64,000 bases of DNA from contig JABSSW010000034.1 in the NCBI GenBank assembly GCA_018902385.1, positions 1 to 64,000 of the forward strand, read 5' to 3'. Every line of letters begins with the position of its first letter. The stretch's first letter is position 1. Position numbers and translations under genes: made by a program. The notes below the pieces were generated by a model, which did no database searches, had not been told where the DNA came from, and was given only the letters and a program-made list of their open reading frames with translations. Below are positions 51 through 57,230 of the stretch, piece after piece. This stretch comes from Physcia stellaris (lineage: Eukaryota > Ascomycota > Lecanoromycetes > Caliciales > Physciaceae).

Positions 51-2100
51 TTATTAAAATTGTTTTCGTATTGTACAATTGTTTCGTAATTTGCATATCA
101 ATCAATGATTATATATAATTTCTATTTATTTAATCAAAATTGTAAAACAAAATAAATGTATTTCGAAATTGCAAAAATAACAAAAATCGATTCATTATCG
201 CAATAATGTTAAAATTTCGAAAATTTCATGATTATCAAATGTGTGTTAAATCGTAATTGAAATAATTGCGAAATAAATTTGTTTATGTTTTTTTCGTTCG
301 TACAATTGTTTCGCAATTTGTATATTAATCGTTGATAAAACACTTTTTATAAAAAAATGTCTTTGATTATTCTTTTTTGACTTTTTTGTTCGATCGAGAA
401 ATCAATTTTTTCGCGACAAAAACATCAATTTCAATCGCATTTTTATTTACAATCAATCACAATGCATCGTATTCATGAAATGAATTACAATTATAACGTT
501 TTTCAAACGCATTTCAACGTTGTAATAATAAAAAAAAAATGAATTGTATTAAAAATGATATTTGTTTTCAAAATATTGAGATTTTCGAATTGTCAAAATT
601 CAAAGAATTTTTTGTTAAATTCGATAATTTTCATCAATTGAAAATTCAAATTTTCAATCGAAACATATGTCAAAATCATTTCAAAACAAAATTCAATCTG
701 TGCAATTAAAATTTTTTTTTTAAAAAATTCAAAATTTGTTTGTCACATATGATTTTCATTCAATTAATAAAAATTGTAAAACAAAACGAATGCATTTTAA
801 CGTTTTGAAAATTATTAAAATTCGACAATTATCGCAATAATTTTGAAATTTCGAAAATTAAATTATTGTTAAATATTTATTCGCGAAATATTTCGTTTCA
901 TTTTTTTATAATATTTATAATGCAACGATACGTTTTTTATATTAATTCAATGCGTATTTGTTGAATTTTCAATATTTTTAATTATTTGAATAAAATTCAT
1001 TTCAAATTTCAAAAAAAAAATTAATTGTAAATTTTATTTATTGAATACAAATGATATTATCGTGCGAAATAAATAAAATCGCGAAAAAAATACAAAATTT
1101 TAATTTGAATAACGAAATTTCGCGATTTTTCAAAATTTTTGTTGAATTCGATAATTTTTATTAATTAAAAATTTCAATTTTTAATCGAAATATATTTATA
1201 AATTTGACGTTAAATTATTTTAATGAACATTTTTTTAAAAAATGTGTTTTCTGTTTAATAATTTTAAAATTTTTCAAACATATTTGTTGTTTAAATATTT
1301 GAATTATTAAAATAATAATATCGATAAATTAAATATTTTTGTGTTTATTACAAACAAAATTCAATTTTTTTTAAAAACAAATTAATTTTAAATATTGTAA
1401 AACGCATGTTTAAATGCAATAATTTAAATATATATATTTTTATTGAAAATTTAAATTTAAAATTAAAATTATTTATTATTTTCGTTTTGAATTGTAAAAT
1501 ATTTAATTTTATAATAAAATAATATATTTGTCAAATCAATAATAAATATTGTATTGTTTTGAATTCGTATAATCGTTTTGTATTTTAAATATTAATTGAT
1601 TTTAAAATTTATTTTTTGATTATTAAAATAAAAATAAAAATTTAATAATTACAACGTAATAATTATAACGTAATAATATAAAATTGTCAAAAATTAATTG
1701 ATAATCGAAAAAAAAAATCATTATATAATCGAAATATTTTTATTTTTAATATTTATTTATTTTTAATTCAATTTAATATATAAAATTATTTATATATATT
1801 TTATAAAAATAAAAAACATTATTTACGATAATATTTTGATCAAAAAATCAATTTTTTCGATTTAACAATATTAATTTGTATTATATTTTTATTCGTTATT
1901 TATCGAAATAAATCGTTTAAAACAAAAATTATAATTGTTTTTTTTTTCGTCGTTATTGAAATTCAATAATATTAATTGTTAAAATAGTAAAAATAAAAAA
2001 AAATCGAAAACGTTGTATTAAACTCGTCAATTTTTGTTATTTTAAACGTGATTAATTCGAAATTAAGAATTAAAATTGAAAACAAAATCTAAAAAAATCG
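51..2100. other. Subtelomeric AT-rich DNA, no gene seen
   Basis: Extremely AT-rich, with only short open frames and no recognisable protein. Short motifs recur: GTACAATTGTTTCG near 73 and again near 299, and ATTATCGCAATAA near 196 and 831, so at least two diverged copies of a unit of a few hundred bases are present. From about 1,200 to 1,900 the DNA is almost pure A and T. No tRNA, rRNA or promoter is visible. Confidence 0.7.
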
Positions 2101-2660
2101 AAATTTTATTTTAATAATGATTGTTCAATTGTTGTTTATTAAAATTGTCATTATAAAAATTTTCATCTTGATAAACGAATGTCATCATTCGAAAAAATCG
2201 ATTTCGACGATTTTTCGATCGACATTCTTCGTCAAAGTTCGATTTTGTCATACAAAATTGATTTTTGTGTTGAAAAAATCTTATAATAATTTATTTATTG
2301 TTTATTCATTTATCTATATCTTTTTTTATATTTTTATTTCTCGAACATGTTATTTTTTTTTTTTTTATCGTCATCTTTCTAATTGTTTATTTTTCTTTTT
2401 GATATTTTATCTGATTTATTTTTCACTCTATTTGTTTATCTGTTTACTTATATATTTTTCTATTTTTTTAACTTTTTAACTTTTTATCTTTTTATCTTTT
2501 TATTTTTTTATCTTTTTATCTCGAGAGCGATTTCGAGAAAGATTGTCGAATAGAAAATTCATTTATCATAATGAGAAATTTTTATATTTTTAGTTTTTAT
2601 TACTTTATTAATTGCAGATAAATTGTTAAATTACATAATTTATAACATTGTATGCAAACT
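2101..2660. repeat. T-rich tract with CTTTTTAT-type microsatellite
   Basis: A pyrimidine-rich stretch that ends with CTTTTTAT units at about 2470-2521. The plus-strand open frame at 2117-2479 is almost all Phe, Ile, Leu and Tyr and simply reflects the T-run. It is not treated as a gene. Confidence 0.6.
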
Positions 2661-2667
2661 ATTTTTA

Positions 2668-2730
2668 TCATCGTATGTTGACAATCGATGTTGTTTATAA
2701 ACAACATCGATGATTATACAATGAAATGTG
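2668..2730. repeat. Dispersed repeat with 22-bp palindrome, copy 1
   Basis: A perfect palindrome at 2687-2708 has core GTTGTTTATAAACAAC flanked by GAT and ATC. About 20 bp on each side (ATGTTGACAATC to the left, GATGATTATACAATGAAAT to the right) match the copy near 6309, so these two copies share a longer repeat than the palindrome alone. Confidence 0.85.
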
Positions 2731-2842
2731 ATTTTATTTGCGAGATATGATTTTTATTATATTTTTAAATTTCATGTTGTCTATAAATGTCAGAAAAAAT
2801 GACTCATATATATCATCATACGCTATTCATTATTGTGAAATT

Positions 2843-10345: not shown

Positions 10346-11184
10346 AATTCGCGATGTTCGAGAATTTGTTCAAACAAATTGAAAAAATAAAAAATTATTC
10401 GTGAAATCAAATGTATTGAACTTTGTTGACATGTACGATGATTGAATTTCAAACGCATTTAAAATTTGAATTTGAGCGAAATTTTTTGCATAAATGTTCG
10501 ATGTGAAAATGAATTCATTGCGATTGTTTGTTTGAAAATATGTTTTTTTTTTGTGTTTTTTACAGAAATGTTCGAGATGATTCGAAATTTTTCGAACGAA
10601 TAATTGATTTGTGAAAATTGCGATGATTCGTTCACAAAAATGATATCGTTTTCGACTGAAATGATCATAAAATGTCAATGAATCAATCGACTAACGTCGA
10701 CTGATGACTATACGAAAATTTAAAAATACGTAAATGATGACGCGAGAACAAATATATATATAAATATATATATTAATTATATATGCGATCTGAATACGAT
10801 GTTAAAGAAGAAATTCGAATTCTGTTGCATTCAAATTCAAAATATTAACTATTGAAAAGATTGTTTGAATTTGAACGATTTTATCAATTTGATTTAAAAT
10901 TGATGAACGTTCACAAACGTTTCTCGATTATTTACAAGTCAAATTCGTCGATCGTTATTCATTCGCGAAATGAAAAAAAATACACGACTTCGTGCGTTAA
11001 CGCGATGTGAATATTTCAAATTAAAACAATTTTCGATATTCATCATTGATCGTTTTCAACAAAAAAAAAATTGATTCGAAGTTCGCGCTAAAAAATAGAA
11101 AAAATAAAAAATTTCGAAAACGAAACAGAAATCAAAATTTCGATTAAATGATGAAACAACGTTCACGACGATGAAAAATCATGC
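10346..11184. other. AT-rich stretch, no gene recognised
   Basis: Only minus-strand frames at 10370-10678 and a short AT dinucleotide run near 10,752-10,784. Nothing recognisable. Confidence 0.45.
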
Positions 11185-11228: not shown

Positions 11229-13300
11229 AATTTTTGTTCGAGACGAATCGAATCGAATTGCGAATTGAATAAATGAATTTTTTGATTTGTTTGAAAAATC
11301 GATTTTTGATCAAAAACGAATTATTCGAAATTTCGAAATTGAAATCGTGTTGTCGAAAACGATCGACAAAAAACGACGAACGTGACGCGATGATCGACGA
11401 AAACGCGATTTGAAAAAATGACGACGATTTTTGATGTTCGTTGTTGAAATAATTGTTTTTTTTTCTCAGATTGAACATTATAAAAAAAAACTTTTTTGAT
11501 TTTTGTCGTTTCGACTGTATTTCATCGAAAAAAAAATTGTCATTTGAATCATTCGAATGTTTGTCGAAAAATGAAATTGCGAATGAAAATTCGTCAATAG
11601 AAATTTCAAAATCGCTATTCGAACGCGCGATCAAAAAAACAAATCGAATTTGTTGTGATCGTTTCGAGCGTCGATTGTTTTTATTCTTTTTCATTTGTTG
11701 CGTTCGTTTCGCGATTTTGATCATTTTTTCAAGATTTTCGCATCGACTTTGAACTTTTGAACGATGTCGTTTTGACGTTTGTCTATAGAAACGTCAACAG
11801 AAAAAACGAGAAAAATGTTGTTTATAAACAACATATTTGCATCGTAACGAAATCGATTTTTAGAAATTTCATCAACGAAATCACTTTTCGATTGTTTTAA
11901 GCGATGATCGATTGAAAACTGTTTCAAATTCAAACGTTGACGAAATTCGATCTCGACGAAATATTCATTTTTTTGCGTCAAATTTCGAGCGTTGTTTCAT
12001 TTCGTGCGAAAATTTCGAATGTCATATTGTTTTTGATATAGAAGATTTGTTTTTTTTGCACGAGTCGAATTTTGATCATATCGTCAATGAAATTCAAAAT
12101 TTCGTTTTCAATCAAGATTTTGAATGCGTCAATTTCATTCGTGATGATTTCGATTGTTTTCATTGATTCGAAAATAATCAACATTTTATTTGCGACGTTC
12201 GTTTGAACAATTTGATCATATGAATGATCGAAATTTAAAATATAAAAATGACAAATCGAAATTTGATTCATGCGATGAATGCGTTCAAAACATTGCGAAA
12301 CGTTGAAAATTGAAAATCAAAAATCGACGAAAATGCAATCGCAACAATCGTTTTGCATATTTTGATCAAAATTGTCGAATTTGACGTTCGTGATCAAAAC
12401 ATCAACGTCGTTGTTTTTGCGATTAAATTCGTTCATGATTATCGTTTTTTTTGCAAATTTGTGTTTTGTTCGAATCACAATCGTTTCGAAATTCGTGTTT
12501 TGTAAAAAAATTTTCGTCAATCATTGAATGTACGATCATTCGCAAAAAATGATGATTTTTCGATTTTGTTTGCGACAAATGTGATGACACAAATGAATTG
12601 TGAAACAAAATTTCGCGACGTTTGTCAGAATGTCGTATGCGTATTCATTTCGATTGTCAAAACAATCGAGTTTGATTGCGAATTTGATTCACGTTCAATA
12701 CATGAATGTTTCATTGTCAAATTTATATTTTTTCAATCAATTCTCGAAATTCCTTTTTTTCGTCGAGACGATTTTTTTTTAATAAAATTGATCGAGATTC
12801 GACGCAATCGTCGCGTGACAAAAACGTTTATGCGTCGTTATGTTTTTCAATTCGATTTTCGATTTTTTATCGAATTTTTTGTTTAATTTTGAAATCGCTC
12901 GATCGTATATGACTGCGTATTGTTTCAATTGACGATTGTTTATTTCGATTTCGCAATGCATTCAATTTGCATGAAAAATGTCATGATCGATGCGCAAAAT
13001 TTCGTCAATCACGTTTGCAATGATCGAGACGAACGTGCGACGAAAAAAACAAAAAACGAAAATGACAAACAACACGCGATTCGTCGTTTCGAAATTTATT
13101 GAAACATTTTTTGTGAATGATTTGACAAATTTTTGAAAACGTATGAATTCAAAATTCATCGATATTTTTTGATGATGTTCGTCGTCAAATGATGATCGAT
13201 CAAAATCGTTTTGATTTTGTCGTAATTTTTGATTTTCGACATATTTTTTTTCATCGAAATCAAGTTTTCATTTCAGAAAATGCGCAATAAATCGTAAAAA
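11227..13300 (-). other. Degraded open frames, no family recognised
   Basis: Minus-strand frames at 11227-11724 (165 residues), 11721-11981, 11978-12271 and 12423-12608 follow one another. Plus-strand frames at 11912-12166, 12524-12886 and 12920-13102 cover much of the same DNA. Basic and acidic clusters are more frequent on the minus strand. No domain can be named, all lack Gly and Trp with at most one Pro, and chance open frames due to stop-codon depletion cannot be excluded. Palindromes interrupt the run at 11774-11834. Confidence 0.3.
11774..11834. repeat. Two palindrome-family copies
   Basis: A variant at 11774-11795 begins GACGTTT, ends AAACGTC and keeps the centre GTCTATAG, which contains CT and AG. 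A second copy at 11815-11834 is the common mutated form (ATGTTGTTTATAAACAACAT). The first shows what the centre looked like before mutation. Confidence 0.8.
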
Positions 13301-14081
13301 TCGAAAATTTTGTTGATTATCGACGTCGCGTTCAACAACAATCGTAAAGCAATTTCGAACGACAAAATTTGTTTCGTGATCAAAAAACGAACAGTTTTAA
13401 TTTTTTGCGTTTCGTCAAGAATCATTCGCTCAAAACATTTTCGTTTCACAAAAATTCATCGTTTCAAATCAATTTGTTCGTTGTTCGAATTTTCGACGTT
13501 ATTGATATTTTCGTCATCGTCGATGTCATGTTTTTCATCATTTTTTCGCGTTCGTCGTTTCGTTTCGCGTATTTTGTTTTTCGCAATCTCGTCGTTTTTG
13601 TTGCGCGAATATTTCGTTCGCAAAACGAAAATGATGTAAAACGTCAAAATGACGTGAATGAAAATTTTCGAAATATCAAAAAATTCGATCAAATATTGAA
13701 ACAAATTTCGCATGTTGTCGTTCAATGTCATGCGACGAACGTGATGAAAATCAAAACGTGAACTGTTTGCGAATATTTTCATCGTCAAATTCGAAAAAAA
13801 TTTCTGAATTTCAAAATTTCAAACGAAAAAATTTGCGAAAAAACAACGATAAAATTCGTTTTGTATTTGCGATTTTGAATTTTCGCGATCAACGTTTGAC
13901 ATTTCAACAATTGTTTGTTTCATTTCTTTTCATTCGCGTCTTTTTTTGATTGAACGTCAATAATTGAATTTGTGTCGACATTCGAAAATTCATGTTGTTC
14001 AATGTTCGCAACGTTTTTTTTCGACGATTGAGCGATATCAGAATCGACATTAAAATCGACATCAAAAAGACGTGATCAGTT
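13301..14081. other. AT-rich, conflicting open frames only
   Basis: Plus-strand frames at 13310-13639 and 13369-13761 overlap a minus-strand frame at 13456-13788 that is rich in Asn, Asp, Lys and Arg, like a disordered protein segment. Which strand, if any, was ever coding cannot be decided. Confidence 0.35.
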
Positions 14082-14123
14082 ATGTTGTTTATAAACGACA
14101 TGTTGTTGTCTATAGACGACGTC
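14082..14123. repeat. Two palindrome-family copies, one unmutated at centre
   Basis: 14082-14101 is a near-palindrome with TTTATAAA centre. Right next to it, 14102-14123 has the centre GTCTATAGAC and an arm GACGACGTC, so CT, AG and CpG are still present. It is the least mutated copy seen. Confidence 0.8.
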
Positions 14124-14266
14124 GATGAATTTTGCGTTTTGACGAATCGAATCGTTTCGTGTTGATAAACGTATTTTGTTATGACAATCAACGTCGTGAT
14201 TGTTTTGTTCAGTTTCATGTCGTCTGTCAAAATCGCATTTTCGAACATTTTTTCGATTTGAAATAT

Positions 14267-15687
14267 TCAATCAAAAACGACAATTTGATAAAATTTCAAT
14301 TGCGTTTCGAGTTCGATTTGTTCGACGTATTGTTCAAAAATCAAAAAATTGACGAAATCGATGTTGAGTTTTGCGCATGCAATTTCGTAATCGTTGACGA
14401 TAACTGTATGCGTGTTCATGTTGTTTTGAACAACGAAAAATTTTTTTCGATTTTTTTCATTGATTTCGATTCGACGTTCGTGAACGTCGTTTTGTTTTTC
14501 GAAAATGAATTTGTTGATTGACAGAAAATCTTGAATGTCGAGAAAGCGTTTGATTATTTTTCGTAAATTTTCGATACTCGAAATTATCGTGATCGTTTCA
14601 TCAATCAACTTCGAATAAACGAGACGATATTTTTTTTTCAAACGTTTGATCAAGCGATTCATTCGTCGATCGAACAAATGACGACGAATTTGTTTGAAAA
14701 TTCGCAAATCGTAATCGTCACGCGCTTTGATGCGTTTTATCGTATCGTTCAATTTTGCGACAAAACGAAACGAATTAACGATCAATCATTGTTTCAAATT
14801 GAAATCGATGAAATCGTTTATCATTTGATTTAATTTGATGATACGAGCAATTTTCTGCTCGTATTCAACATCGAATTCATATTCAGAATCGTTTTCATTT
14901 GTTTGTTTCGTGATTTTCAACGCGTTTTTGAAATTGACTTTGTAATTGCGCAATTGAATTTCGTTGAAAAACAACGATGACTTTGCTGTGATGTTTTGTT
15001 TTTTGTTGATTTCATCGTTTTTTTGAGAATTTCGAATGCGTTTTCGTCAATATTATCTGAAAAAACAGAATGTTCGATATCAATCTTCAAAATGAAATCG
15101 TGATAGTGAATTTCATTTTTTGACATCGTATTTCGATCGATTTCTTCGTCAAATTTCAAAAATTGATACATTGAGCAAAGAATCGTCGTGACGAAAAATT
15201 TTTGTTTCTCAAAATTAATAATGAGCAAATTTTTTTTGACATCAATGTCATTAAATTTTTGTGTGTCGTTCAATCATTCAAACAAATCGACGTTTTGATA
15301 CGAGAAAAAGTCGCTGATCTCGTCACGAATCTTTGTTCATTTTTCAAGAATGAATTGAATTTTGTCAGCAAAAATTTTGAAATGTGCGATATTTGAAAGT
15401 TCTAAATAATTTGTCACGCGAAAATCGTGATTCTCAATGCGATTTTCGACGAAATACACGTGAACGAGATTTTTTTTCATAGATTTTTTGACATGTTTTT
15501 CGTCATATGCGATCGTTTTGCTTTTGTTGAATTTATTGATGTCGATCGATTTTCGTTTCTTGATAAAAACGTTTTTCTTTGAAAACGTGATTTTGCGTTT
15601 GATCGACATGATGTCAATTGCGTGTAACGAAAAAAAAATCGATCGATGTTGTTTATAAATTTCGAACGCGTTTTCAAATGATGTCAA
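14267..15687 (-). pseudogene. Run of minus-strand open frames, unrecognised relic
   Basis: Reading from 15,687 leftwards, frames of 116 (15337-15687), 118 (14917-15273), 62 (14786-14974) and 172 residues (14267-14785) follow each other with little gap. They hold plausible protein-like segments: a basic block (KRKITFSKKNVFIKKRKSID) near the start, mixed charged helices (RMNRLIKRLKKKYRLVYSKL) and an acidic region. The plus-strand counterpart (14132-14521) overlaps only a part. This is the most gene-like run in 9-24 kb, but no family is recognised, and the frame changes mean it is broken if it was ever one gene. Confidence 0.35.
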
Positions 15688-16640: not shown

Positions 16641-16644
16641 GAAT

Positions 16645-22640: not shown

Positions 22641-22642
22641 CA

Positions 22643-41515: not shown

Positions 41516-41519
41516 TGTT

Positions 41520-42226: not shown

Positions 42227-43654
42227 TTATAACAAATTTCTTTTAAAAAAATAACGAAAAATAAATGAAAAACGTTAAAAACAAAAAGATTATTTTTAAC
42301 AAAATCATAACGAACATAAAAAATCGTTAAATATTAATGCAATTTTTAATAACAATTTAATTTTGTACGTTGTTTTTCAACGAACACGTTGATTTGAATT
42401 TAACACGTTTGATAATTTTTTTATAAATTGTTTTTTTCGTTATCGAACGTGTAAAGTTTGTCAAACAGTTCGTAATATTGATACAATTTTTGATATTAAA
42501 TTCAAAATCAAAATCATTTGCAACGTGTGTATTCAATTTATTTTTATTTTCATGTTTGCGTTATTGTTTTTTTTTTGTTTTTTTCTGTTTATTCGATCGT
42601 AATAATTGATTTGTCGTTTGTCGAAACAATTATCGTTTGCGTTTAACAAAAAAATTAAATTTTATGTTTTATGATTGAATATATATTAATATTTGATTTA
42701 TCATTATCGTGTAAATTTACAACATTTTTGATTGATTGTTCAAACACATTATTCAAACAAACGATATTATTATGTTTTTTGTATGTTTTCGTTTAACGAT
42801 TTTTTTTTAATTGCGATATCAAATTTTGTAATCAATTGAATAACAATTTTAAACAATTGATTATAAATCATTGATTTTTTTTTCAAAAAAACAAAACGTT
42901 AAAACGAAACAAATTCAATTGATTTTTTTTTCGATATTGAAATCGACAAACAAATATAAATTCGATTCGTTTAATTCGATCGAATTATTGAATACACATT
43001 TCACAATCAATTTCAATAAACGATTGAATTTTTTTTTATATATATACAAATTTTAAAATAAATATTTCAAAATTCGATTAATTAATTGCAACAAACTATA
43101 GATGAATGCGCGTTTGAATAAATTTGATTGATTGAATTTTTTATTTAAATTGTAATTTTGTCGAATAAAAATTCGTTTCGAATCGCATTACATGATTGTA
43201 TTTTCAATATAACTAAATTGTAAAACGATATCGAATTGTAAATAAATTTCTCGTTTAATGTAAAAATTAATTCAAAATTCAAAATTCAAAATTCAAATTT
43301 ATATCATTGATCAGTTTCAAAACAATTGTCAATCGATTTGTATAAAACATTTTATTCAAACAAACGATTTATACAGAAATCAAATTTCGCATGTGATGTT
43401 CAATTTTTGCGTTATAAACGTCACGAAAACATACGATGTTGAATATTCGAATTTTCATTTTTCGATTTTCGAATGTTATTTTATTTTTCGCGTTGAACAA
43501 CATGAATGAATCAATACATTCGACGACAGCAATCAAGTTTTGATTCAACACGCACGATTAATCATTCGTGTGTCGTGCAAATTGAATTCATTTCTGTTTT
43601 GCGTGTGATATAATTTTTGATTTTTGTTTATTTTTGTTTCGAACACGATTCGAA
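42227..43654. other. AT-rich stretch, no gene recognised
   Basis: Contains only short frames (42871-43056 plus; 43369-43551 minus) and a CAAAATT run near 43,272-43,300. Nothing recognised. Confidence 0.5.
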
Positions 43655-44299
43655 TTTTGTTGTTTCGATTGTTTATCACAACATTCAATTTCGTTTTCAT
43701 TCAACGTTCATCATGTTCATTTTAAACACGCGTTTTCAAATTTTTCAACAAACACGACGCGTTTATCAAAAAATCGACGAAATTTCACGTTTGATCGAAC
43801 GACAATTGCGACAATTGAATCGCAACGTCGAATTGCAAAATCGAACGAATCGAATCAAAACAAAAAAAATCAAACGAAAACGCAATCTGAAAAAAAAACG
43901 AATGATCAAAAACAAAAAAATCGAAATTGACGACAAAATTGTTTTCGATCAAACACGTTTGAACGTTTTCATGATGAAAATCAACATCGATCAAAAAAAA
44001 AAACGAAATTCAAGTCGAAATTTCATGAAATCATCGTTTTGAATTCGAAATTTTCGAAAACGACAAACGAAAATGAAAAATGAAATCGAAATGACGACGA
44101 TTGAATGAACGACGATTTCGACGACACGATTTTGCAATTCAAAATTGTTGTCGTGTTCGTTGTCGAATCGTCGTCGAAACAACGATTCAATTCAACGCGA
44201 TCGAAACGTCAACGACGATCATGCACATGCAACGATTTCGACGACAAAAAATTAAACAATTTGTTTTCACAAAAGTTTAGAAAATTTTTCGATTGAACG
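43655..44299 (+). pseudogene. Unrecognised coding relic, copy 2 (paralogue at 6.5-7.1 kb)
   Basis: The frame at 43617-44042 (141 residues) contains QKIDEISRLIERQLRQLNRN and a basic stretch nearly identical to copy 1. The frame at 44105-44296 (63 residues) contains FDDKKLNNLFSQKFRKFFD, again nearly identical. The DNA similarity stops just after the second frame (CGATTGAAC). Conservation of both halves over 37 kb, on the same strand and with equal spacing, supports a shared ancestral coding sequence. Function unknown; coiled coil plus basic region suggests an RNA- or DNA-binding protein, which is inference. Confidence 0.55.
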
Positions 44300-45174
44300 T
44301 TTTTGATTGATTGTCGATTTGTTCACGATCGCAAAAACAAAAAACGTGTCAAAAATATGATTTTTTTCATTGATTTGTCGACGTCAATTTGATTTGTATT
44401 CAGTTTTGCTTTTTTGATTTTGAAAAAAAAATGTGTGACGACAATTTCACAAACACGATTGCAAAAATTTTTGATCGATCAATGTTACGTGTTTTTTTTT
44501 CATTGTTAAATAAAGAAATTTTGATGAAATTGAATTTGATTCGTCTGTAAATTTTTTGCAAAAACGAACAATTCAACAAAACAATTTTTCGAATTTGATC
44601 GTTCGTTTCTTTTTCAATTTTTGCGACTAGATTTTGAAACGCAAAAAAAAAAACAAAATTTCGTAAAAAAATGAAAACGTCAAAAAAAATCAGAAAGCGA
44701 TTGAACGAAACACAAAAAAAAAACAAAAAAAACGAAAAAAACGTGACATTGCTTTTTTGTTGAATTAATAAATTCGTTTTTTGTAATTTTTTTCAATTCG
44801 TTTTTTTCGCATTAGCATTCACGTCTAGTTCGAACGAGCAATGATCAATTGTTTTTTTTTTTTTTTTTTTTTAATTTATTTAACGCGATTTTTCTCATCA
44901 ATCGATTCGAAATTCAACGCGTTGAAATTTAAACAAAACGCATAAATAAAATCGTTGATAAAAAATAAATTTTGAAATTTCATTGACACATCATTGTTTA
45001 TCTATTTATCGTTTATCGTTACAGTGAAAATTTCAAAAAAAAGCAAACGACGACGTAAAACGTGAAATTGCAATTTTTCGACGAAATCAATTTTTCATTC
45101 GTAATATACTCGTTCAAAATTTACGAAATCATTTAAATTTTTACATTCAAACAAAATTTAATACGTATTAAATT
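44300..45174. other. AT-rich stretch with T-run, no gene
   Basis: A Phe-rich minus-strand frame (44400-44726) and a 22-base T-run at 44851-44872. Nothing recognised. Confidence 0.5.
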
Positions 45175-45681
45175 TTAATTGTCGTCAACAATTTGATTTT
45201 CATTCATGATAATATCGTGATCGATTTCGAAATTATTCATGTTTTTTTGACATGAATTTGACATCGTTTTCGAAATTTTTCGTTTTCGTTTTATTTGTTT
45301 TTTTTTCGTTGTTGTTGTATCGCGCAATCGAATTCGATGTTTGAACGTGTACATCAAATTGCGTGTGACGTATAATATTGTTTCAAACGTGTAAAAATCG
45401 CTCGATCGAACGTTGTTTATTCGTGATTGCACGATGACGTGATAAAACGTCGAAAATTGAAATCGACGTCGTCGTCGATGTTTCGAGTTTTTTCGACAAT
45501 ATGTCGTCGAACGTAAAGAGCAATTACGAGTTAAAATCACATAAGCGATTATACGAATCAACGATTGAATCACGAAAACACGATTGATATTGTTCGTGCG
45601 ACGATCAATGAACAAACATATATACATAAAATTGTGATTTTTAACAAACGACAACGTATTCTGAATCTTGACATGAAACAA
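45175..45681 (-). pseudogene. Unrecognised 168-residue open frame
   Basis: Starts MFHVKIQNTLSFVKNHNFMY and has a basic middle (HRRRRRF; TTKKKQIKRKRKISK) and an acidic, Asn-rich end (ILDHDII-like; NENQIVDDN). It has several Cys but no Gly, Pro or Trp. The frame is less biased to Phe/Ile than most in the region, and the reverse strand is not open. It may be the remains of a nuclear protein; no domain is recognised. Confidence 0.3.
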
Positions 45682-47035
45682 TTAAACTTTTCAAATCGAT
45701 TTTCGTCGTTTTTGAAATTTTAATTTGATCAATTAACACGCATTATCATGTTGTTTGTCGACGACAACGTTGTTTGATGTGCAAATCAATCGAATTCGCG
45801 TGAACGAATGAATAATTTCATTTTTTTTGTTTTTTCGTTTCGTTGTTTTCGATTCGAATCGTTTTCATCGCGAACATTTTGATTTTGTTCAGTTTTGTTT
45901 TTTTGATTTTTCGAGTTTCATTTCGAGTCGTTTGATTTGTTGTTTTTTTTCTTTCTTTTTTCGTCATGATCGTTGTCGATAAATCGAGACATTTGTTCGA
46001 TTATATATCATTTTCATTTCGCAAATGTAATTTTTCATTTGCTTAGCATTTGATTCGATTTTCACGAAAATATCGAAAACAAATTGATTTCAAATAACAT
46101 TTTCGAAAAGTTGTACGACAAAATTATCAAATATGAAAACGTTGTAAATTTTCATTTGATTTTTGAATTTTTGCGAATTTCGAACGAATCTTTTCGAGCG
46201 TTTGTTGATGATTCATCGTGTTGAAAAAACAAAACGATACAAAAAAAAAAATTGTTTACATGTTTTCGTCAAATTTATCAAATCAACAATTGAAATCATC
46301 GAGCAAAAACAATTTCGATTTGAATATAAATTCGAAACATTGATCAGATTTGATAAATGTTCGAACAAAAAAAAAAATTTTCGTTTTTTGAAAATATTCA
46401 TGATTTCAATGAACGCTTTTTGATGACAAACAAATTTTTAATTTTTGCGTCGCAAAAATTGATGTCGATCGTTTCGACATTTATATGTCAATAATTTGAT
46501 GATCATGTCGTTAAAAATTTTCACAATCGTTTTTTTCGTTTCAGAAATTTTTCGATCATAAAAATCAAACATTTTTTGAATGATGTTTTTTTCGAAAACA
46601 TTTGACAAAACGTGAAATTTAAAAATTCATGTGCGATTTTCACATTTTGAATGATATTTTTTCGAACACGCGTTTTCTGACGCGTTTGTGAAATTTGCAT
46701 GATGACGAATTGAACAATGTAAATATGTATATATATAACATCATGTCATGCGACATTAGACGCACGACGCGTGATGAATAAATCGATTTGACGTTCAAAT
46801 TTTTTCAATAAATTCATCAAAACGACGAGATTGTTTTTCAATCAAATTGTTTTTTCATAAAAATATCTCGTTGCGACAATGTAAATTGATCGAAAAAAAC
46901 GTCGTTTTTGATTGTTGTTTGTCATTTTGACAATCGTCAACATCAAAATATCGCATCATGTTATCGATCGATTCATCGTTCGCGTTATCGTATTGCGAAA
47001 TTTTCGTTTTTTTTTTTGAATTTTTTTCGCAAATC
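45682..47035. other. AT-rich stretch, no gene recognised
   Basis: One plus-strand Lys/Phe-rich frame (46163-46423) and a TATATATA run near 46,728. Nothing else is visible. Confidence 0.5.
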
Positions 47036-47530
47036 TATTTTTTTTTAAAAAATTGATTTTTCATTTTTCTTTGTTGAAATTGATTTTTCATTTTTTTTTT
47101 GATTGATTGATTTTTCATTTTTTTTTGATTGATTGATTTTTATTTTTTCTTGATTGATTGATTTTTTTTTTTTTGATTGATTGATTTTTATTTTTTTTTG
47201 ATTGATTGATTTTTTATTTTTTTTTTGATTGATTGATTTTTTATTTTTTTTTTGATTGATTGATTTTTATTTTTTTTTGATTGATTGATTTTTTATTTCT
47301 TTTTTGTTTGAATTGATTTTTTATTTTTTTTTGTTTGATTGATTTTTATTTTTTTTTGATTGATTGATTTTTCATTTTTTTTGATTGATTGATTTTTTAT
47401 TTTTCTTTTGTTTGAATTGATTTTTTATTTCTTTCTTGATTGATTGATTTTTTATTTCTTTTTTGATTGATTGATTTTTTATTTTTTTTTGATTGATTGA
47501 TTTTTTGTTTTTTTTTTGTTTGAACTGATT
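47036..47530. repeat. TTTTTTGATTGATTGATTTT minisatellite
   Basis: About 17 units of roughly 28-30 bp: TTGATTGATTGATTTT followed by a TATTTTTTTT or CATTTTTTTT run, with some units TTTGTTTGAATTGATTTT. It is strongly strand-biased (T and G on plus). Read on the minus strand it gives KKSINQKRNKKSINQ-type repeats at the end of the frame at 47397-47714. Confidence 0.9.
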
Positions 47531-48270
47531 TGATTTGATTCATTTCGATGTTATTCAAACTCGTCGTGATTTCACGATCAAGAATTTTCAAAACGAATTG
47601 AATTCGAAAAGACGATTTTGTAAAAAAAGCGAATTTGAAAAAAACGATCGTCGTTGAATCGAAACGTGTGATCGACAATTCATCAAAACGTTTGTTGACA
47701 ATTTTGATTTTCATTTCTGACGATGACGCGATTTTTTTCGATGTTAATCACGTTCGATTGAATTGAATTTGACGCAATTTTTCGAATGTCACGTTTTCGT
47801 TTGATTTGTTTTCTCGTCATTGTTGTTCTGTTCAACGAAATATTATGTTTGATGATAAAATGTCGATCGCGTGAAACGCAAAATTCAAAAAATCGATGTG
47901 ATTGCGTTCAAAAATCAAACAACGTAAAATTCAAATTCGATGCGTTTTGATTCGCATCATTCATTTGTTTGAAAAAATTATTTGAAAAAAAAACGCGACG
48001 TAAAAACAAACGAAATACGAAACTTTTTTTTCGACGACTTTTTCGAATTATTTTCGTCGTCGTTTTCGATATTGTTTGATTTTCGAAATTCGTCGATGTA
48101 TTTTGTCTGTCTGTCTTGTTGAAATTTGAAATAACAAAACGTTCAAGCGAAAAAATAACGACATCGTCGTTGAATTGCGCGATTTGATAAATGTCGTTGA
48201 TTTTTTCAAAACGTTCGTAACGTTTGATTGATTGTGAAATCGATGACAATCGATAATTCGAAAAAAATAA
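47531..48270 (-). other. Minus-strand open frames between two minisatellites
   Basis: The frame at 47908-48249 (113 residues, MSSISQSIKRYERFEKINDI...) and the frame at 47397-47714, which runs into the minisatellite, both lie on the minus strand. They could be parts of one mutated gene with simple repeats at its ends; no family is recognised. Confidence 0.3.
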
Positions 48271-48274
48271 TTTA

Positions 48275-48560
48275 TTCGAAAAAATTTTGTTTTTTCAATA
48301 AAATACTCGTCAAATGAGAATTCTCGTTTTTTCAAGAAAATTTTGTTTTTTCAATAAAATAATCGTCAGATGAAAATTGTTGTTTTTTCAAAAAAATTTT
48401 GTTTTTTCAATAGAATAATCGTCAGATGTTGAATTTGTTTTTTCAAAAAATTCTGTCTTTTCAATAGAATAATCGTCAGATGAGAATTGCTGTTTTTTCA
48501 AAGAAATTTTGTTTTTTCAGTAAAATAATCGTCAAATGAGAATTGCAATTTTTCAAAAAA
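48275..48560. repeat. 56-bp tandem repeat, five units
   Basis: CGTCAAATG/CGTCAGATG recurs at about 48308, 48364, 48420, 48474 and 48530 (periods 56, 56, 54, 56). Each unit has GTTTTTTCAA twice. It ends about 70 bp before the left LTR of the retrotransposon. Confidence 0.9.
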
Positions 48561-48631
48561 GAATTCTGCGCTAAACATCGTGATCGAAAAATACTTTGAA
48601 CGAAAAAAGTCTGAAATATTTCGCTGTTTAG

Positions 48632-48951
48632 TGTAAGAAATAAAAGTTCAAAATCTTCGAAAGTGCGACTCGCATCTCGTCAAACAATTCGATTATCGAA
48701 ATTCGAATGATTTCGAAGAAAATCAGTCTCAATCATTTTACAATTCGATCAACGATAAACTCAACAAACTCATACTGTCAATCGAAATCGATCGAATTCG
48801 TACGATTGAGTAAATAAAATGTGAATAAAAAACAATTGCAAAACGTAATTTGTTCTGTAACGATTAGTAAATCAATATACTATATCTCAAGCTATACATT
48901 TTTGATGCCAATAATTCATTAAACTATATTATTTTTAGTACGAGTTTTACA
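48632..48951 (+). repeat. Left LTR of the Ty3/Gypsy fossil
   Basis: 320 bp beginning TGTAA and ending ACA. About nine in ten positions match the right LTR by eye; most differences are C/T before T, or G/A after A. The five bases before it (TTTAG) and after the right LTR (TTTCG) could be a diverged target-site duplication. Confidence 0.85.
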
Positions 48952-51900
48952 TTCTAATCGCTATCATATTTCAAAATGATGTCACTCGTGTATATTTAAC
49001 AGAATACAATTTTGTTGTTTCGCATACATCATGTCGAACTCTGATAATGATTTGTTTTTTAAATTTGTCGAAAATGTTGACGTATTTTTCTGATTGATTT
49101 ATTACAAACAACAGATCGAAAAAGATCATAAGAAAGAAATCAAATTGCAAGCTCGAAATATTGAACGTTCGAAATTTGTAATTTTTATTTCATTTGTTTT
49201 TATTTCATCTACTTCTGCTTCTGATTCTGTCTGAAAATCTTTCGTCATGAAGATTATCGAGACGACATCGAATCAATATGAAAAAAAAATTACAAAAAGT
49301 GAAAAAATATTGCAAACAAATGAAAAATCAATTCACGCAAAACAACGTGAATCACATGATTCAATTTCCGAATTTAGTCAAAATCGCATACGTTGATATT
49401 TATCTTAAGTCAAATAGCAATGCGAACAAGTTTTGAAACGCAAAAATCGACTTTCATTCAGACAAGCAATACATTTGAAACGAATTCAAGATTTTTTTGA
49501 AAAGCGACATCGAACGAACAATCACGTTGCAACAGAATTTCTTGAAAAAGTATCGCAAACACAAACAAGATCACAATCAATCGATTAAAAATTACAATGT
49601 CGAACGAATAAATATGCTTGCTGAACTGAAATTCGAATTCAGATTCACGAAAACAGTGAAATTCAATGATTTTCGTGACGAATTACGTTTGAAACTTCGC
49701 TGCATGCTTTTTAAGAAAAAGAAAATTTTCACAAAAACGAAATTGCTTGAACGACTCAAGCGTATGAAAAACGCTCAAATTCTGAAAAAAAAACTCAAGA
49801 ACTTCAAGAAGCGTAAAATCTCGTTCGATACTGACAGCTCTGAAAGCGAGAACGAAAAATTCAAAATTGCGAAATTCAAAAGTAAAAAAATCAAAAATAT
49901 TAACAAAATCAATTCGAATCACGAATCAATCAAATCGAAAAATACTCGAATGTATCGTTGATTCGTCAGCGAATTCAAAAAATTCAGAACAAAAATAATT
50001 GTATAGATTGTGACAAATCAGATCATCAAATCGAAATCTGTACAAACAAGAAAAACAAAATCATTTTCGCTGATCAAACTTTTAAGCAGTCAAAAAACTA
50101 ATCGACTTGATGATTTTCGCTCAAATCGCTAAAAAAAAGAAATTTTCGAGTTTCGATTTCGATACGTCGTTTTTTTCAAACATGAACAAGAATCATGCTA
50201 ACAAGAAAAAAAAACGACGCAAGAAGTTTAGAAAACTCGTGATTCGTAAGTGCGTCAAAATCAAAATTAACATACAAAGCGAAAACAAAATCTGAAACGA
50301 ATCGAGAGCAATACTCGATACAGAAACGAAAATTAATTTGATAAGTCATGTTTATGCGAAAAAATTGAATTTTCGTCGTTTTGAAACTCTAAACTGTGAT
50401 GCAATAACAGTTGACAATCATCGTTTGAAAACGTATGACGTTTATTTCGTACAATTCGAAATGTCAAACGTCAAGAAAATTAATCGCTTTTTCGAGAAAT
50501 CGTTTCTGATCGTGAATTTGAATTGAGATTTAACGTTAAACATGTTCTGAATACAATTTTCGAAAATCAAAGTGAATTGAAACGACGACAATATCAAGAT
50601 TTGACGTTGCAAAAAAAACATCTCATTTTTATCACATGTCGTATCGAAAACATCGAATCAAAACAATTGATCGAAAACGTCATCGATAACGAAATCGAAA
50701 CGTATTTCATATTCGTACGAATGTATATTGACAAACAGTTCGACATGCATGAAATACATATTTCAAAACGAATTCAAATAAAATCTGTCTTGATTGAAAT
50801 GAAAAAAAAACTCGATATCAAAATCACTCTTTTCGATATCTTGAAGACGTATGAAAAACTCGATAACGAAAATAAAATTTACGAATTATCGAATCATGAT
50901 TCAGACGATCATGCTATTAATTTAAAAAAAAACAAAAAATCGTCGCATGAATCAATTTATTTTTTATTCGAAAATGAGTTTCGAGTATTACGTGCTTACA
51001 TCGAGAAACATTTAATTAACGATTTCATTCGATTTTCACAATTTTTTGCAAAAACGCTCATCTTGTTCGTCAAAAAAAAAAAACGATAGTTTACGATTAT
51101 GCGTGAACTACAAAAGTCTTAATGTTTTCACGATAAAAAATAAATATTTTTATCGTTAATCGTGAAAATCTAGATAGATTCAGCAAAGTCGTCAAATATA
51201 TCAGCATTGATTTGATTGTTGCTTATCATCGATTGCGTATCAAGCATGAAGACGAATGAAAAACAATTTTTCGTATTCGATATGATCATTTCGAATATAA
51301 CGTATTTTTTCGATTTCACTAACGTTTCGACGACGTTTCAAGAATTTCATCAATAGAATTTTAGCGATTCGTCTCGATATTAACGTCATTGTATATTTGA
51401 ATGATATAGTAATTTATTCGATGAACGTCGAAATTCATGTCGACGATGTCAAATGAATTTTGATCGTTTTAAAAAAAATAAGTTATACATTGTTTTTGAG
51501 AAATGCAAATGATTCGTTGACGAAATAGATTTTCTTGAATTCGTCGTTTTTTTTCAAAAGATGAAAATGCAAAACAAAAAAATCGAAATTATTCAACAAT
51601 GATCAGTATTTCGCAACGTTTTCGACATCATGTAATTTTTCAACATCGTTAATTTTTATCGACGATTCATTAAACATTTCAATAAAATTGCTGAATTTTT
51701 GATCGTTATGCTAAAAGATCACAAAAAACTTCGAAAAAATATTCGTAAACGCAAACGAAATCAAAGTCGAAATCGCAACAAATTATCGAATATTCACATT
51801 TTTTGATCAACGAAACATTGAAAATCTTCAAACAATTTCGCAAAACATTTATCGAAACATCAATTTTACGTCATTTCGATTTCGAGCGTGTTATTCGAGT

Positions 51901-54900
51901 CGAAATCGACGCATTCGACAAAATTCTAAAGATCATTTTATGTCAACAAGACGACGAAAGTCATTGACATTTTGTTGCGTATTTTCGCGTAAATTGATTT
52001 CGATCGAATGTCATTACGAAATTCATGACAAGAAATTGTTGATTATTGTGATTTCGTTCAAGCAATGAAAACATTATTTCGAAAACGCAAAAAACAAATT
52101 TTTGTTTTTATTGATCATCGCAATTTGAGACAATTTATGATACAACTAGATTGTCGTCACGTTAGATTCGATGAATTCAAAAATTGAATCGATATAATTT
52201 CTTAATCGATTATCGTTTCGATAACAAAAATTTTGTTGACGAATTTTCAAAACGATTTGATCACATGACGATTATTGAGAAAAACGTCGAAAACAATCGT
52301 CAAATTTTGAAACAATTGCAAAAATCATTGATCGCAAACTCGAAACGTTTCGAAAAAATGCGAATAAATGCGATCAAAATCATGAATGCGATGCATGTCA
52401 TGAAACGATTCATGAATGCGATGCATAACATGAAACGTCGATCGCATTTAAATGATTCAACAATCGAATCAATCAACGTTGTTTCGAAAACATTTGATTC
52501 AAAAAATTCAAAACGAAATCGAATTTCAATCAACGTTGTTTCGAAAACATTCGATTCAAAAAATTCAAAAAATTCGAAACATTCGATTGAACAAAAATCA
52601 AACGTGACATTCATAAAATGAAAAATTTTTGTGTTAAAATCAGCGATTGTATTTGAATGCGCAATGCATAAAGTTCGAATACAGATTGTTTTACGAAAAA
52701 AGACGACATATAACGACGAATCAACATTTTCATTGTTGAATTTCGTTCGTGATTTGATCGTTAAAAATCAATTCGTTTCTGAAATATGTCGAGAATTAAT
52801 TATTTCGAAAACAAAAACAGACAATTGACAACACAAAAATGAACTTTTGTATTACGACGACGTCGTTTACATTTCAGAAGAATTTGCGTGAAAACGTTAT
52901 TCGTGTCAATCACGATAATTCGTTCGTTGATCATTTCGACATCGAACGAACGTTGAAACTGATACGTCGAAAATATTATTGATCGAATCAAAATTTTATC
53001 GAAATTTTTGAAATGCGACAACAAATCAAAAAACATTGTGAAACATGCGTCGTTTGCAAACGAAACAAAGTTGCACGACACAAATCATACGACGAGTTTT
53101 TTTTTTTTTCCGATTTTTGAATTTAAATGAGAATTGATCTTTTCATGAATTTCGTGACAAAATTTTTTCAAATAAAGCGTGAAATGAAACGATTTACGAC
53201 TCGATTTTAATGATTGTGAATCGTTTAACGAAAATGATTCATTACATATCAGTAATTAAAACGATTTTCGCAAAAAATCTGATCGAAATTCTACTTCGCG
53301 AAATCATTCGATTTCACGATTTTTTTCGTCAATCGTCATCGACAGAAACTTCATTTTCACGTTCAAGTACAACGATGCGTTGTGTTACGTTTTGAAAATC
53401 AAACGTAAATTGTCAATCGTTTTTCATTTTCAAATCGATGAACAAATCGAAGCGAATGAACAGCGTCATGAAACAATTTTTTCGCGTCTTTGTCAATTTC
53501 GAGCAAAATGATTGAATAAAGCTGTTGTTTATAATCGAGTTCGTTTACAACAACAACAAACATGCATTCACAAATATTTTTTCGTTCGAAATTATGTTTG
53601 AATACTCATTTCGCATGTTCTTTCGAGAAAACATGAAACAAAAAAGTTAAATTCAAATTCGCAAAAAAAACACGTTGAACATTTAATTGAGCTATTTCGA
53701 ATATTGAAAAACAATTTATTCGTGACACAACAACAGCAAACGATGTATAAAAACGAACGCACGAAATCAATGTCATACAACGTCGAAAATTACGTGAATT
53801 TGAACGATAAAAACATCAAAACTAAACGAAACAAAAAGTTGAAATGAAAATTTTTGAGTCATTTCAAATTTTAAAACTATAAAAATCAAGTTTATCGTTT
53901 AAATTTATTCAAACGTTGACGCATTCACGACGTTTTTCACGTTTTTTTTTGAAAAAGTTCAATTTTAAAAAAAAAGAAAACATACGTCACATTTTTTGAA
54001 TTTTTTATCAAGTTGAAAATATTGAATTCGACGAAAACATGAAAATGAAAATCACGAAAAATTTATGAAATCGAAATCATTAAAAACAACAAAATTTTCA
54101 AAACAAATGAAATTTCAAACAAACTTTACAGCGAACTCGATTTCTATTATTTGATAAAATGAAAAAATTATGAAAACGCGACTTGAGAATTTGCATCGCT
54201 TGTCAAACATCTTCGAAAAATTTTGCGACAATTTCATAACGAAAATTCGAAAAAATCTGATGTCAATAAAGAAACAAATCATCGAAAATCAAGAAAAAAA
54301 TGAATTGAAATATTTATTGCATGTTAACACATTTCTCGTCTTCAAAACTCTGTGTGCTATTTACTGTCTAAAATTTACGACGCATGAAAAACTGAATCGT
54401 GTCAAAAACATCTTCAGAAACTGTTGTCCGATTTGATCGAGCGATGAGTCATTGAATAAAGATGTGAAATGAAATAAAAAAAAAATTTCGAAATTTGAAT
54501 ATCAATGCGATCGCGATTAACGAGCGTCTATCGCGTTACACATTTTTCATGATATCGATGTTGATATTCGAAATAAAAAAATGAAAAAATAAAAAAATGT
54601 TCGAATTCAAAACTTTTTGTCAACAAAGTTGTCAATCATCATATCGAAAGTTGTGAATGATACGAAATCAAACATTCGATTATGAAAACAACAAACATTG
54701 ATTCATCAAATTATGCTTTTTTTGAATCATTCAAAAAAATGTTTTTTCAGATTTTTAACGCAAATTGATTATTGAATTCGAAAAAAATATTTCGAAATGC
54801 GAAAATCACGATCATAATGCTTTTTTTTCAACGATTTCGATCAAAATCAAGACAAACAGAACAATCAAACAAACAAAATACGTCAAAGTTTTTGTTAACA

Positions 54901-54938
54901 TCTTGATTTCAAAAGATTTCGATGTTTAAAAAAACGTA

Positions 54939-55263
54939 TGTAAAAAATAAAAGTTCAAAATTTTCGAAAAAAGTGCGATTCGCAATTCGTCAAGCAATTC
55001 GATTATCGAAATTCGAATGATTTCGAAGAAAATCAATTTCAATCATTTTACAACTCGATCAACGATAAACTCAACAAAGTTCATATTTTCAATCGAAGTC
55101 GATCGAATTCGTACGATTGAATAGATTGAATGTATATAAAAACAATTTGCAAAACGTAGTCTGTTTTGTAACGATTAATAAATCAATATATTACATCTCA
55201 AATTATACATTTTTGATGTCAATAATTCATTAGATTATACTATTTCTAGTACGATTGTTTACA
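54939..55263 (+). repeat. Right LTR of the Ty3/Gypsy fossil
   Basis: 325 bp, TGTAA to ACA, direct repeat of 48,632-48,951. Shared landmarks include GATTTCGAAGAAAATCA and GATCGAATTCGTACGATTGA. LTR divergence cannot be used as a simple clock because most differences follow the local mutation context. Confidence 0.85.
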
Positions 55264-55299
55264 TTTCGTTGTATCAAACAGTCGTCGCGTTTTCAAAAA

Positions 55300-56610
55300 A
55301 TGCGTTCGAAAATCGTATCAAAAACGTTGAAAATTGAATGAAAAAAATTGAAAATTTCTATTTCGTCGTTTAGTTTTTTATTTCTGAATGAAAATCGAAA
55401 TTCGTTTTTTTCGATGATTTGTTCGAAAAAATTTGCTAAAAAACGACGAATCTATTACAAATAAAAAATCGAATTTCTTTTCGATTATTTTGACGAATCA
55501 AAATCGAAAAATTAAAAAAATTTAAAACAATTTGAATCGTGCGTTGAAAACGTCAAAACAAAAATTAAATTCGAAAAGTTTGAAAAATAGAAAATCGATT
55601 CGATGAATCAAATTTATAATTTGAAATTTCATTTAAAAATTTCATGTTTCATACAAAACGATGATTTTCAATTTTGATTGTTGCGTCAACGCAAATAAAA
55701 CAATTTGAAAAATGCGTTCGAAAACGTCAAACGAAAATTACAATTAAAATTCAAAAAATAGAAAATCGATTCGATGAATCGTTGATTTATTTGTTTTATT
55801 TTTTTTCGAAATTTTTCGATATTTTGTCTTTATCGCGTCGTTTGTCGCATTTTGACGAAAAATTTTGAATCGAAAACGAAATACGATTTCGACGTGATTG
55901 ACATGATTTTCGAATGTTTCGTTCGTCATGATCATGAAAATCTTTTCGTCAACGCAAATAGATTTTCAATCAAAATTCTTGATTTCGATAAAAATTGAAA
56001 ATTACAATTAAAATTCAAAAAATAGAAAATTTGTTCGATTAATCGTTGATTTATGAGTTTTTTGAAATTTTATTTATGAATTTCATGTTTGAACGATGAT
56101 TTTCAATTTTAAACATGTGACGTCAAAACAAATAGAAATTTGAATGATCGTTCGATACGTCGAACGAAAATTACAATTAAAATTCAAAAAATGAAAATCG
56201 ATTTGATGAATCGTTGATTTATGAATTTATCATTACATTTATATGATTGAACGATGATTTTCGATTTATCGCAACTTTGCATCAACACGAATAAAAATTT
56301 TTTGAATCGTGCGTTCGAAACGTCAGACGAAAATTACAATTACAACAAAAAAATAGAAAATCGACTGAGTGAATCGTTGATTTATGAATTTATTGTTTCG
56401 ATTTGAATCGTTTTCATTATTAAACGATGATTTTCAATTCATTTAATGTCGTTCAACGCAAATAAAACAATTTGAAAAATGCGTTCGAAAACGTCAAACG
56501 AAAATTACAATTAAAATTCAAAAAATAGAAAATCGATTCGATGAATCGTTGATTTATATTTTTTGAAATTTCATTTATGAATTTATCGCGTCGTTTACGA
56601 ATTTTGTTGT
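55300..56610. repeat. ~170-bp satellite, about six degenerate units
   Basis: GAAAATTACAATTAAAATTC followed by AGAAAATCGATTCGATGAAT recurs at about 55733, 55997, 56166, 56329 and 56500 (spacings 264, 169, 163, 171; one unit may be missing or extended). A weaker unit is near 55,560. Units also share GATGATTTTCAATTT and a GTCAACGCAAATAAAACAAT word. It begins directly after the right LTR. Confidence 0.85.
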
Positions 56611-57230
56611 GATCAAACGAAATACGATTCGATTGAACGATGAAATTCGAATGTCAAACATTCACGTAAATTTGTATGTAATGTAAAATGTTCGTCAATT
56701 GAATATTTGATTGCACGAATGTCAAAAAAATTGAAAATTTGAAATCGTTGAATTTTTTTGTTAAACGTTTCGAATATCAGATTTGATTGTATGAATATTA
56801 GAAAATGAATTTGAAATGATGATTTCGATGATTCGAAATTTTGCATTAATATCAGTATTTTTTGCGTTTTTATGCAATCGAACTTTTGAAATTGTATAAT
56901 TCGATTTTGAATTTTTGTCACAATAATTAAAAAAATCGTTAAATTTTTTCGTCAACGTTATAAAAATTAAAATTGTTCATATCATTTGCGTTTTTTTGAT
57001 TTAATGATGATTGTTGAAATTGTGTCATAAATTCGAATCAAACAAAAAAACAAAAAAACAATCAAATTTTCGCAATTGAATAATTTTATGAAAACAATTA
57101 AATTTAAATCATTTTGATTAAAACAATAAATCGTTTTCGTTCGACGTTACAAATATCATGTTTTATATATAAAATTGATATTGTGAAATTTTGTTTAAAC
57201 AATAGAATGTTCCTTTAAAAAAATTCTATC
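56611..57230. other. AT-rich stretch with one dispersed repeat copy
   Basis: Minus-strand frame 56613-56921 is unrecognised. At about 57070-57170 lies a copy of the dispersed repeat of 24.5-25.3 kb (CGTTACAAATATCATG). Confidence 0.55.

Follow-up and report, generated by a model that had tools for sequence, protein, structure and literature searches.

Loss of cytosines before C and T in an apparent subtelomere of Physcia stellaris, probably by a process like repeat-induced point mutation that prefers CpC to CpT

We analysed 64,000 nucleotides of the ascomycete Physcia stellaris (GenBank assembly GCA_018902385.1, contig JABSSW010000034.1, positions 1 to 64,000, forward strand), hereafter the window, whose sequence suggests a fungal chromosome end with its subtelomere. 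In the window, C has changed to T in a distinct context, before C and before T; the change is close to saturation at CpC, and two islands of higher guanine-plus-cytosine (GC) content have been spared. The subtelomere was probably hypermutated by a methyltransferase-type process that resembles repeat-induced point mutation (RIP), acts on both strands at C before a pyrimidine, at CpC more than at CpT, and nearly spares CpA and CpG.

The AT-rich set comprised 56,212 bp with an observed GC content of 0.264, and the GC islands (36760-39600 and 57200-59700, 5,342 bp) served as the baseline. Observed/expected ratios (o/e) of dinucleotides were taken over both strands. In the AT-rich set, CC/GG was reduced to 0.01 of expectation and CT/AG to 0.22, and CA/TG and CG stood at 1.31 and 3.30; TC was retained (1.43). 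An earlier note on this DNA had claimed that C is followed almost only by A or G in the AT-rich parts, with AG and GG rare and CA, TG and CG common, and our counts show this even more strongly than it had claimed. Its examples also hold, as all 11 plus-strand Cs at 13501-13560 stand in CA (4) or CG (7) and all six at 10861-10920 in CA (3) or CG (3). Its remark that TA is not raised is true of the ratio, which is only 0.39, and not of the absolute frequency, which is 1.19 times that of the islands. A count of all 16 dinucleotides in AT-rich against GC-balanced parts, made within the window, found no depletion in the islands, where CC (0.97), CT (0.97), CA (1.06) and CG (0.99) are all near expectation. 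On the plus strand of the AT-rich set, 26 CC/GG are left of about 1,957 expected, and 17 of these 26 lie in three short zones (five at 25.8 kb, and five and seven adjoining two satellites). The longest run free of CC/GG measures 13,012 bp (12754-25765). The signature is present over 51-57200, the extent first given for it, and goes on as far as 64000; only the two islands and a pair of half-mutated satellites break it.

The same result was obtained from densities. Among 128 bins of 500 bp, 107 held at most two CC (both strands together) and 11 held at least 20, namely nine island and two satellite bins; the 10 intermediate bins belong to neither group. Over both strands, the stripped and the CC-rich bins were alike in CA (63.7 and 63.0 per bin) and CG (57.5 and 58.0), whereas CC stood at 0.08 against 52.8 and CT at 10.4 against 57.9. 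Because CA and CG are equal and CC and CT have collapsed, cytosines followed by A or G stayed, and those followed by C or T are gone. This loss is not a property of all DNA in the window. The islands keep CC. So does a small AT-rich piece adjoining island 2 (57212-57430, GC 0.29), in which CC, from a count of just 11, has an o/e of 1.18 and CT one of 0.44.

We modelled the signature with an order-2 start from 5,012 bp of the islands and a C-to-T probability set by the 3′ base alone on both strands, and scored the fit by Kullback-Leibler divergence (KL). Two parameters (CpC 0.993, CpT 0.851) sufficed to come near all 16 dinucleotides (KL 0.0015), with a GC content of 0.269 against 0.264 observed. 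The other models were far worse: CpA with CpT (KL 0.077), CpT alone (0.084), uniform mutation, that is, a context-free GC-to-AT bias (0.140), CpC alone (0.151), CpA alone (0.315) and CpG alone (0.322). When all four contexts were free, the fit gave CpA 0.072, CpC 0.993, CpG 0 and CpT 0.855 (KL 0.0005). The biggest misfits in an example run (CpC 0.995, CpT 0.8) were CT/AG (0.0145 predicted, 0.0104 observed) and TA (0.0439 predicted, 0.0527 observed). In stripped DNA, CpA and CpG remain at 0.96 and 1.01 of their island frequency, and the preference for CpC was at least about 45-fold relative to CpA and about 65-fold relative to CpG, measured against bootstrap upper bounds (island CA 0.0726, CG 0.0627). 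The proposal of the earlier note, C-to-T change at CpT and CpC on both strands, is supported for both contexts and needs one correction, namely that CpC was hit harder and earlier and CpT more slowly.

The order of the two contexts can be seen in partly mutated DNA. In the intermediate zone at 59700-60050 (Table 1) and at 48000-51000 (CC o/e 0.02, CT o/e 0.57), CC is gone but CT is largely or partly kept, and thus CpC was mutated before CpT. Two arrays of one 183/184-bp satellite family still carry CC. We compared four units per array, leaving C/T changes unpolarised, and found C/T-polymorphic columns, array by array, at 9/12 and 12/13 CpC, 7/17 and 13/19 CpT, 2/12 and 4/12 CpA, and 6/28 and 2/21 CpG (p = 0.004 and 1.4e-06). 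For both satellites together the figures are 21/25 CpC, 20/36 CpT, 6/24 CpA and 8/49 CpG. Top-strand CC per unit numbered 0, 3, 9, 7 and 5 from 30148, the unit at 30148-30330 having none at all, and 4, 4, 6, 9, 10 and 3 from 60056. Units adjoining stripped DNA tend to hold fewer CC than inner units, a gradient consistent either with a spread inward from flanking DNA or with array centres having been homogenised.

Direct comparisons of copies point the same way. A lenient self-comparison left 28 pairs after tandem regions and pairs less than 1,500 bp apart had been dropped. Over all 28 pairs, C/T differences occupied 194/213 CpT, 10/10 CpC, 465/1234 CpA and 401/1105 CpG sites, but most pairs were only 56-62% identical and probably are chance matches of AT-rich DNA. 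Our conclusions rest on the three dispersed pairs with at least 80% identity, in which the differences fell at 26/31 CpT, 1/1 CpC, 7/55 CpA and 1/55 CpG (equal 3′ base; Fisher p = 4e-17); 24 of the 26 CpT differences came from a single pair (48614-48953/54912-55265). A predominance of CpA-to-TpA change in repeat alignments, which would have spoken against the earlier note, was therefore not found among these pairs. A GC-richer copy in island 2 (59205-59354) differs from a telomeric copy (56-205) by 39 substitutions, 29 of them C>T or G>A. From island to telomeric copy, T was found at 14 of 15 CpT (the remaining one is a gap), five of six CpC and one of six CpG. The mutated repeats in the window include gypsy, satellite and other relics, and for a large part of the stripped DNA the window offers no good partner.

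Several observations weigh against a full sparing of CpA or against other parts of this interpretation. The free fit assigned CpA a probability of about 0.07, and the baseline, about 5 kb of other sequence, is short and not ancestral to the mutated DNA. Near the telomere, at 1001-2000, GC is 0.118 and both CA (0.032 per base) and CG (0.026 per base) are at half the island level. In the island-to-telomeric comparison, 9 of 27 CpA had become T, and when three poorer matches of the same region were added, T stood at 26/94 CpA and 19/56 CpG, against 19/26 CpC and 49/64 CpT. A 78% pair (6435-7121/43615-44301) showed C/T differences at 10 CpA, 24 CpG and nine CpT. Two 90% pairs that overlap tandem DNA, and that the tandem filter had removed, showed three and four at CpA and four and four at CpT (8047-8296/4480-4721 and 8119-8328/5073-5281). 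Polymorphic columns in the 147-bp array (11 units) numbered 23/27 CpA, 5/8 CpG and 5/5 CpT (p = 0.56), and those in a 92-bp array 3/17 CpA, 3/11 CpG and 2/2 CpT (p = 0.06). The homogenisation mentioned above could by itself yield the satellite gradient. Finally, the methyltransferase and the dependence on repeats are both putative, and no DNA methylase was among the Pfam families at E ≤ 0.01 in the six frames of the window. Because stripped DNA retains almost only the Cs of CpA and CpG, older copies tell little of the first wave of mutation; they leave room for a minor activity at CpA, above all near the telomere.

We compared the signature with known systems, using the sections of the cited papers that were available. 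Like RIP in Neurospora crassa, it changes C:G to T:A on both strands of DNA that contains repeats, with a context on the 3′ side. However, the order in N. crassa is CpA > CpT > CpG > CpC (PMC5496416), and here it is nearly reversed, CpC being first and CpA nearly unchanged. The usual indices, with thresholds of 1.1 for the RIP product and 0.75 for the substrate (PMC10998396), do not register it. TpA/ApT was 0.40 in AT-rich DNA and 0.63 in the islands, where RIP requires more than 1.1, and (CpA+TpG)/(ApC+GpT) was 1.44 and 1.31, where it requires less than 0.75. The composite index was strongly negative in AT-rich DNA (−1.04), in line with the expectation that indices built on CpA and TpA would miss such mutation. 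RIP surveys that use TpA/ApT and CpA/TpG indices can thus miss heavily mutated DNA altogether. The RIPCAL paper gives two further formulas, with non-published indices off by default (PMC2621366). Both would catch the signature, as (CpC+GpG)/(TpC+GpA) was about 0.003 in stripped DNA against 0.76 in the islands, and (CpT+ApG)/(TpT+ApA) about 0.058 against 0.74.

RIP takes place after mating and before meiosis. It acts on duplicates longer than about 400 bp with more than about 80% identity (PMC2621366), and it requires RID, with DIM-2 for older repeats (PMC11969663). RIPCAL describes CpA as the usual target, CpG as that in Microbotryum, and CpT above CpA in the Tad1 family of Neurospora (PMC2621366), and DeRIP takes CpA as the target (PMC3017866). 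In Trichoderma reesei, C-to-T change in repeats has been shown experimentally, but CpA and CpG lead there and CpC, first here, comes last (PMC5496416). In the available text, Amselem (2015) names CpA, CpT and CpG signatures and none at CpC, and links CpA/CpT to RID/Masc1 (PMC4352252). According to the same source, Magnaporthe oryzae, Botrytis cinerea and Sclerotinia sclerotiorum have a RID/Masc1 gene and show CpT to TpT as a main or secondary change, but CpA joins CpT in them and no CpC signature is named, whereas in the window CpC takes the lead and CpA is left almost untouched. As van Wyk (2021) reports CpT to TpT as dominant in alignments of RIP-capable fungi (PMC7882544), CpT as a target is not new. 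Anisogramma shows CpA and CpT changes (PMC10998396), and Monilinia CpC-to-TpT double changes alongside CpA (PMC8959702). For Rhizoctonia solani AG8, the text of a paper stresses CpG, but in its table single-nucleotide polymorphisms are densest at CpC, with one in every 214 bp compared with one in 370 bp at CpG, both within genes and within repeats (PMC4014442). The CpG-type RIP-like mutation of Basidiomycota (Microbotryum, Rhizoctonia) is also a C-to-T hypermutation, but CpG is its named target and genes are also hit, whereas here the islands are spared and CG per base is unchanged (0.0573 in AT-rich DNA, 0.0565 in the islands). In the MAGGY element of Pyricularia, 5-methylcytosine at CpA exceeds that at CpC and CpT (PMC7979813). 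A signature led by CpC with CpA and CpG spared was not found in the literature covered on RIP with CpC/CpT preference, a coverage that leaves outside it the broad survey of Clutterbuck (2011), nor in the available sections of PMC5555474, PMC4595289, PMC11540331, PMC11969663 and PMC11105155.

A different explanation would need no active mutator. Non-CG 5-methylcytosine at heterochromatic CpC and CpT could have deaminated spontaneously and slowly, the islands being young insertions. The graded series of CpC and then CpT loss at 59700-60050, at 48000-51000 and in the satellites would suit such passive decay, and so would the sharp edges of island 1, as a late insertion would give. However, to remove nearly all CpC and keep CpA and CpG at island level demands the selectivity of at least about 45-fold estimated above, and other decay would be expected over such times; moreover, the edges of island 1 showed no shared direct repeat longer than 6 bp. 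We consider this unlikely, though it deserves more weight than any other alternative. A dedicated DNA cytosine deaminase acting on repeats or transposon intermediates, in place of a methyltransferase, would also give C-to-T change on both strands and could approach saturation at CpC. AID/APOBEC-type enzymes read the 5′ side, in contexts such as TC, CC or WRC. Here the context lies on the 3′ side, TC is kept, and the effect of the 5′ base on the survival of CT is weak (0.13 after A, 0.24 after G, 0.21 after T, and 0.42 after C, on four sites). A 3′ context with this weak 5′ effect and retained TC favours a methyltransferase-based process over such a deaminase, which seems to us improbable.

Slightly less credible again is G-to-A change at purine-G from O6-alkylguanine in poorly repaired heterochromatin, a context equal to that of the cancer signature SBS11. 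SBS11-type alkylation acts genome-wide, alkylation signatures are less exclusive in context, and we know of no SBS11 case confined to part of a region or saturated. Such damage would have to spare islands with edges sharp within about 60 bp and to saturate CpC with CpA and CpG nearly unchanged. The likeness is real in that SBS11 consists of C>T at NpCpC and NpCpT (PMC12556801), the same two contexts found here, but it is a damage signature of tumours and the islands in the same window are unaffected. A compositional or technical artefact, whether from low GC, from errors in base calling or from chemical conversion of the library, is hardly conceivable. No evidence supporting it was found; CC has vanished where AA and TT are over-represented, both strands are affected, and the islands and the AT-rich stretch at 57212-57430 retain CC.

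The preferred explanation remains the RIP-like process at C before a pyrimidine. Its agent would be a C5 cytosine methyltransferase, of either RID/Masc1 type or DIM-2 type, with altered preference, acting together with deamination; we infer this from the dependence on the base 3′ of the C, as in RIP and in these enzymes. Its substrates would be repeats and heterochromatin, including copies of gypsy, SNF2 and OrsD, and it would mutate CpC first and CpT more slowly. The agent may have been a RIP system proper (premeiotic, homology-triggered, with RID or DIM-2), and the interpretation given in the earlier note is partly supported overall. We regard as evenly balanced the wider proposal that this fungus has a repeat-mutating enzyme of near-exclusive 3′-pyrimidine specificity (CpC > CpT), nearly the reverse of that of Neurospora, which does not touch CpG and CpA, kills transposons less by stops than by erasing all codons for Gly, Pro and Trp, and has been overlooked since RIP indices rest on CpA/TpA. 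If the specificity is that of one enzyme, fungal repeat mutators can shift from CpA to CpC/CpT, and nature would then offer a strong comparison for studying how C5 methyltransferases recognise the base that follows their target.

The consequences for coding follow from the context. Without CC/GG no Gly, Pro or Trp codon is possible, and none occurs in the six frames of the 13-kb run. Mutation at CpC and CpT can turn TGG into TGA and TAG into TAA, but cannot turn Gln codons into TAA or TAG. Over both strands, the AT-rich set has 65.3 TGA, 44.2 TAA and 3.7 TAG per kb, against 33.7, 15.6 and 18.6 in the islands; total stops increase in stripped DNA, chiefly as TGA. In the 13-kb run there are 19 frames of at least 100 aa, the longest of 349 aa, against a mean of 0.6 frames in 20 base shuffles, with a mean longest frame of 99 aa. 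Judged from their sequence, the stripped frames outlast chance length, yet they cannot encode a normal protein, and gene finders may call such empty frames.

The features of the window are collected in Table 1. The SNF2-type relic keeps an LDE..KIK-like motif (by eye), and the OrsD-like frame belongs to a family that we take to be mainly fungal. A further RT_RNaseH_2 match (E 8.9e-05) lies in one plus-strand frame, unlocalised, so a second gypsy relic is possible. Matches to LysE (E 0.0024) and YNCE (E 0.006) in Pfam were taken as chance, and no Rfam match was found for the window. A string from one satellite had no exact counterpart in the collection of prokaryotes.

Table 1. Features of the 64,000-nucleotide window in order of position.
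Feature	Position	Strand	Remarks
Telomere-type repeat	1-49	+	CTAACCC-like units, CC kept; Tandem Repeats Finder
CC/GG-stripped AT-rich block 1	52-30200	.	
Run without any CC/GG	12754-25765	.	Gly, Pro and Trp codons missing in all six frames
SNF2-type domain relic	13066-13455	-	Three internal stops; inside the CC/GG-free run; Pfam PF00176, E 6.6e-06, 25.9 bits against cut-off 24.9
CC-free relic of the 183/184-bp satellite	25477-25721	.	About 66-71% identical
OrsD-like open reading frame	27265-28095	-	Single CC/GG (27557); Pfam PF12013, E 2.7e-09
183-bp satellite, half mutated	30204-31037	.	Most CpC and CpT columns are polymorphic, most CpG columns fixed; Tandem Repeats Finder
CC/GG-stripped AT-rich block 2	31040-36780	.	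Five CC/GG at 31043-31109, by the satellite
GC island 1	36785-39540	.	Unmutated; GC 0.52; sharp edges (within about 60 bp)
CC/GG-stripped AT-rich block 3	39541-57204	.	
Dispersed repeat copy	48614-48953	+	C/T differences from partner nearly all at CpT
Ty3/gypsy-type RNase H domain relic	51812-51985	+	Pfam PF17919, E 1.7e-07
Ty3/gypsy-type integrase zinc-binding domain relic	52878-53072	+	Pfam PF17921, E 2.4e-09
Partner of 48614-48953	54912-55265	+	85% identical
GC island 2	57205-59690	.	AT-rich left edge, unmutated
Intermediate zone	59700-60050	.	CC o/e 0.06, CT o/e 0.79
184-bp satellite, half mutated	60056-60969	.	Tandem Repeats Finder
CC/GG-stripped AT-rich block 4	61200-64000	.	147-bp array inside

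Two tandem arrays other than the satellites are wholly stripped of CC. The 147-bp array (61227-62979, about 12 copies) has many C/T differences at CpA, and a long array of a unit of about 22 bp (28434-29453) also matches itself in inverted orientation.

Island 1 holds an open frame of 446 aa, in which a C2H2-like finger can be seen by eye; a repeat of about 110 bp (77%) is also internal to the island. The islands may not be ordinary unique genes: among their frames tried, none had a convincing Pfam family. The lack of a shared direct repeat at its edges led us to reject island 1 as a transposon insertion, and of two stretches in viral contigs that matched a pattern for its protein, neither was confirmed as a relative. 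A motif of 40-46 bp, about 85% identical, is common to both islands (37122-37161, 37518-37563 and 58824-58873).

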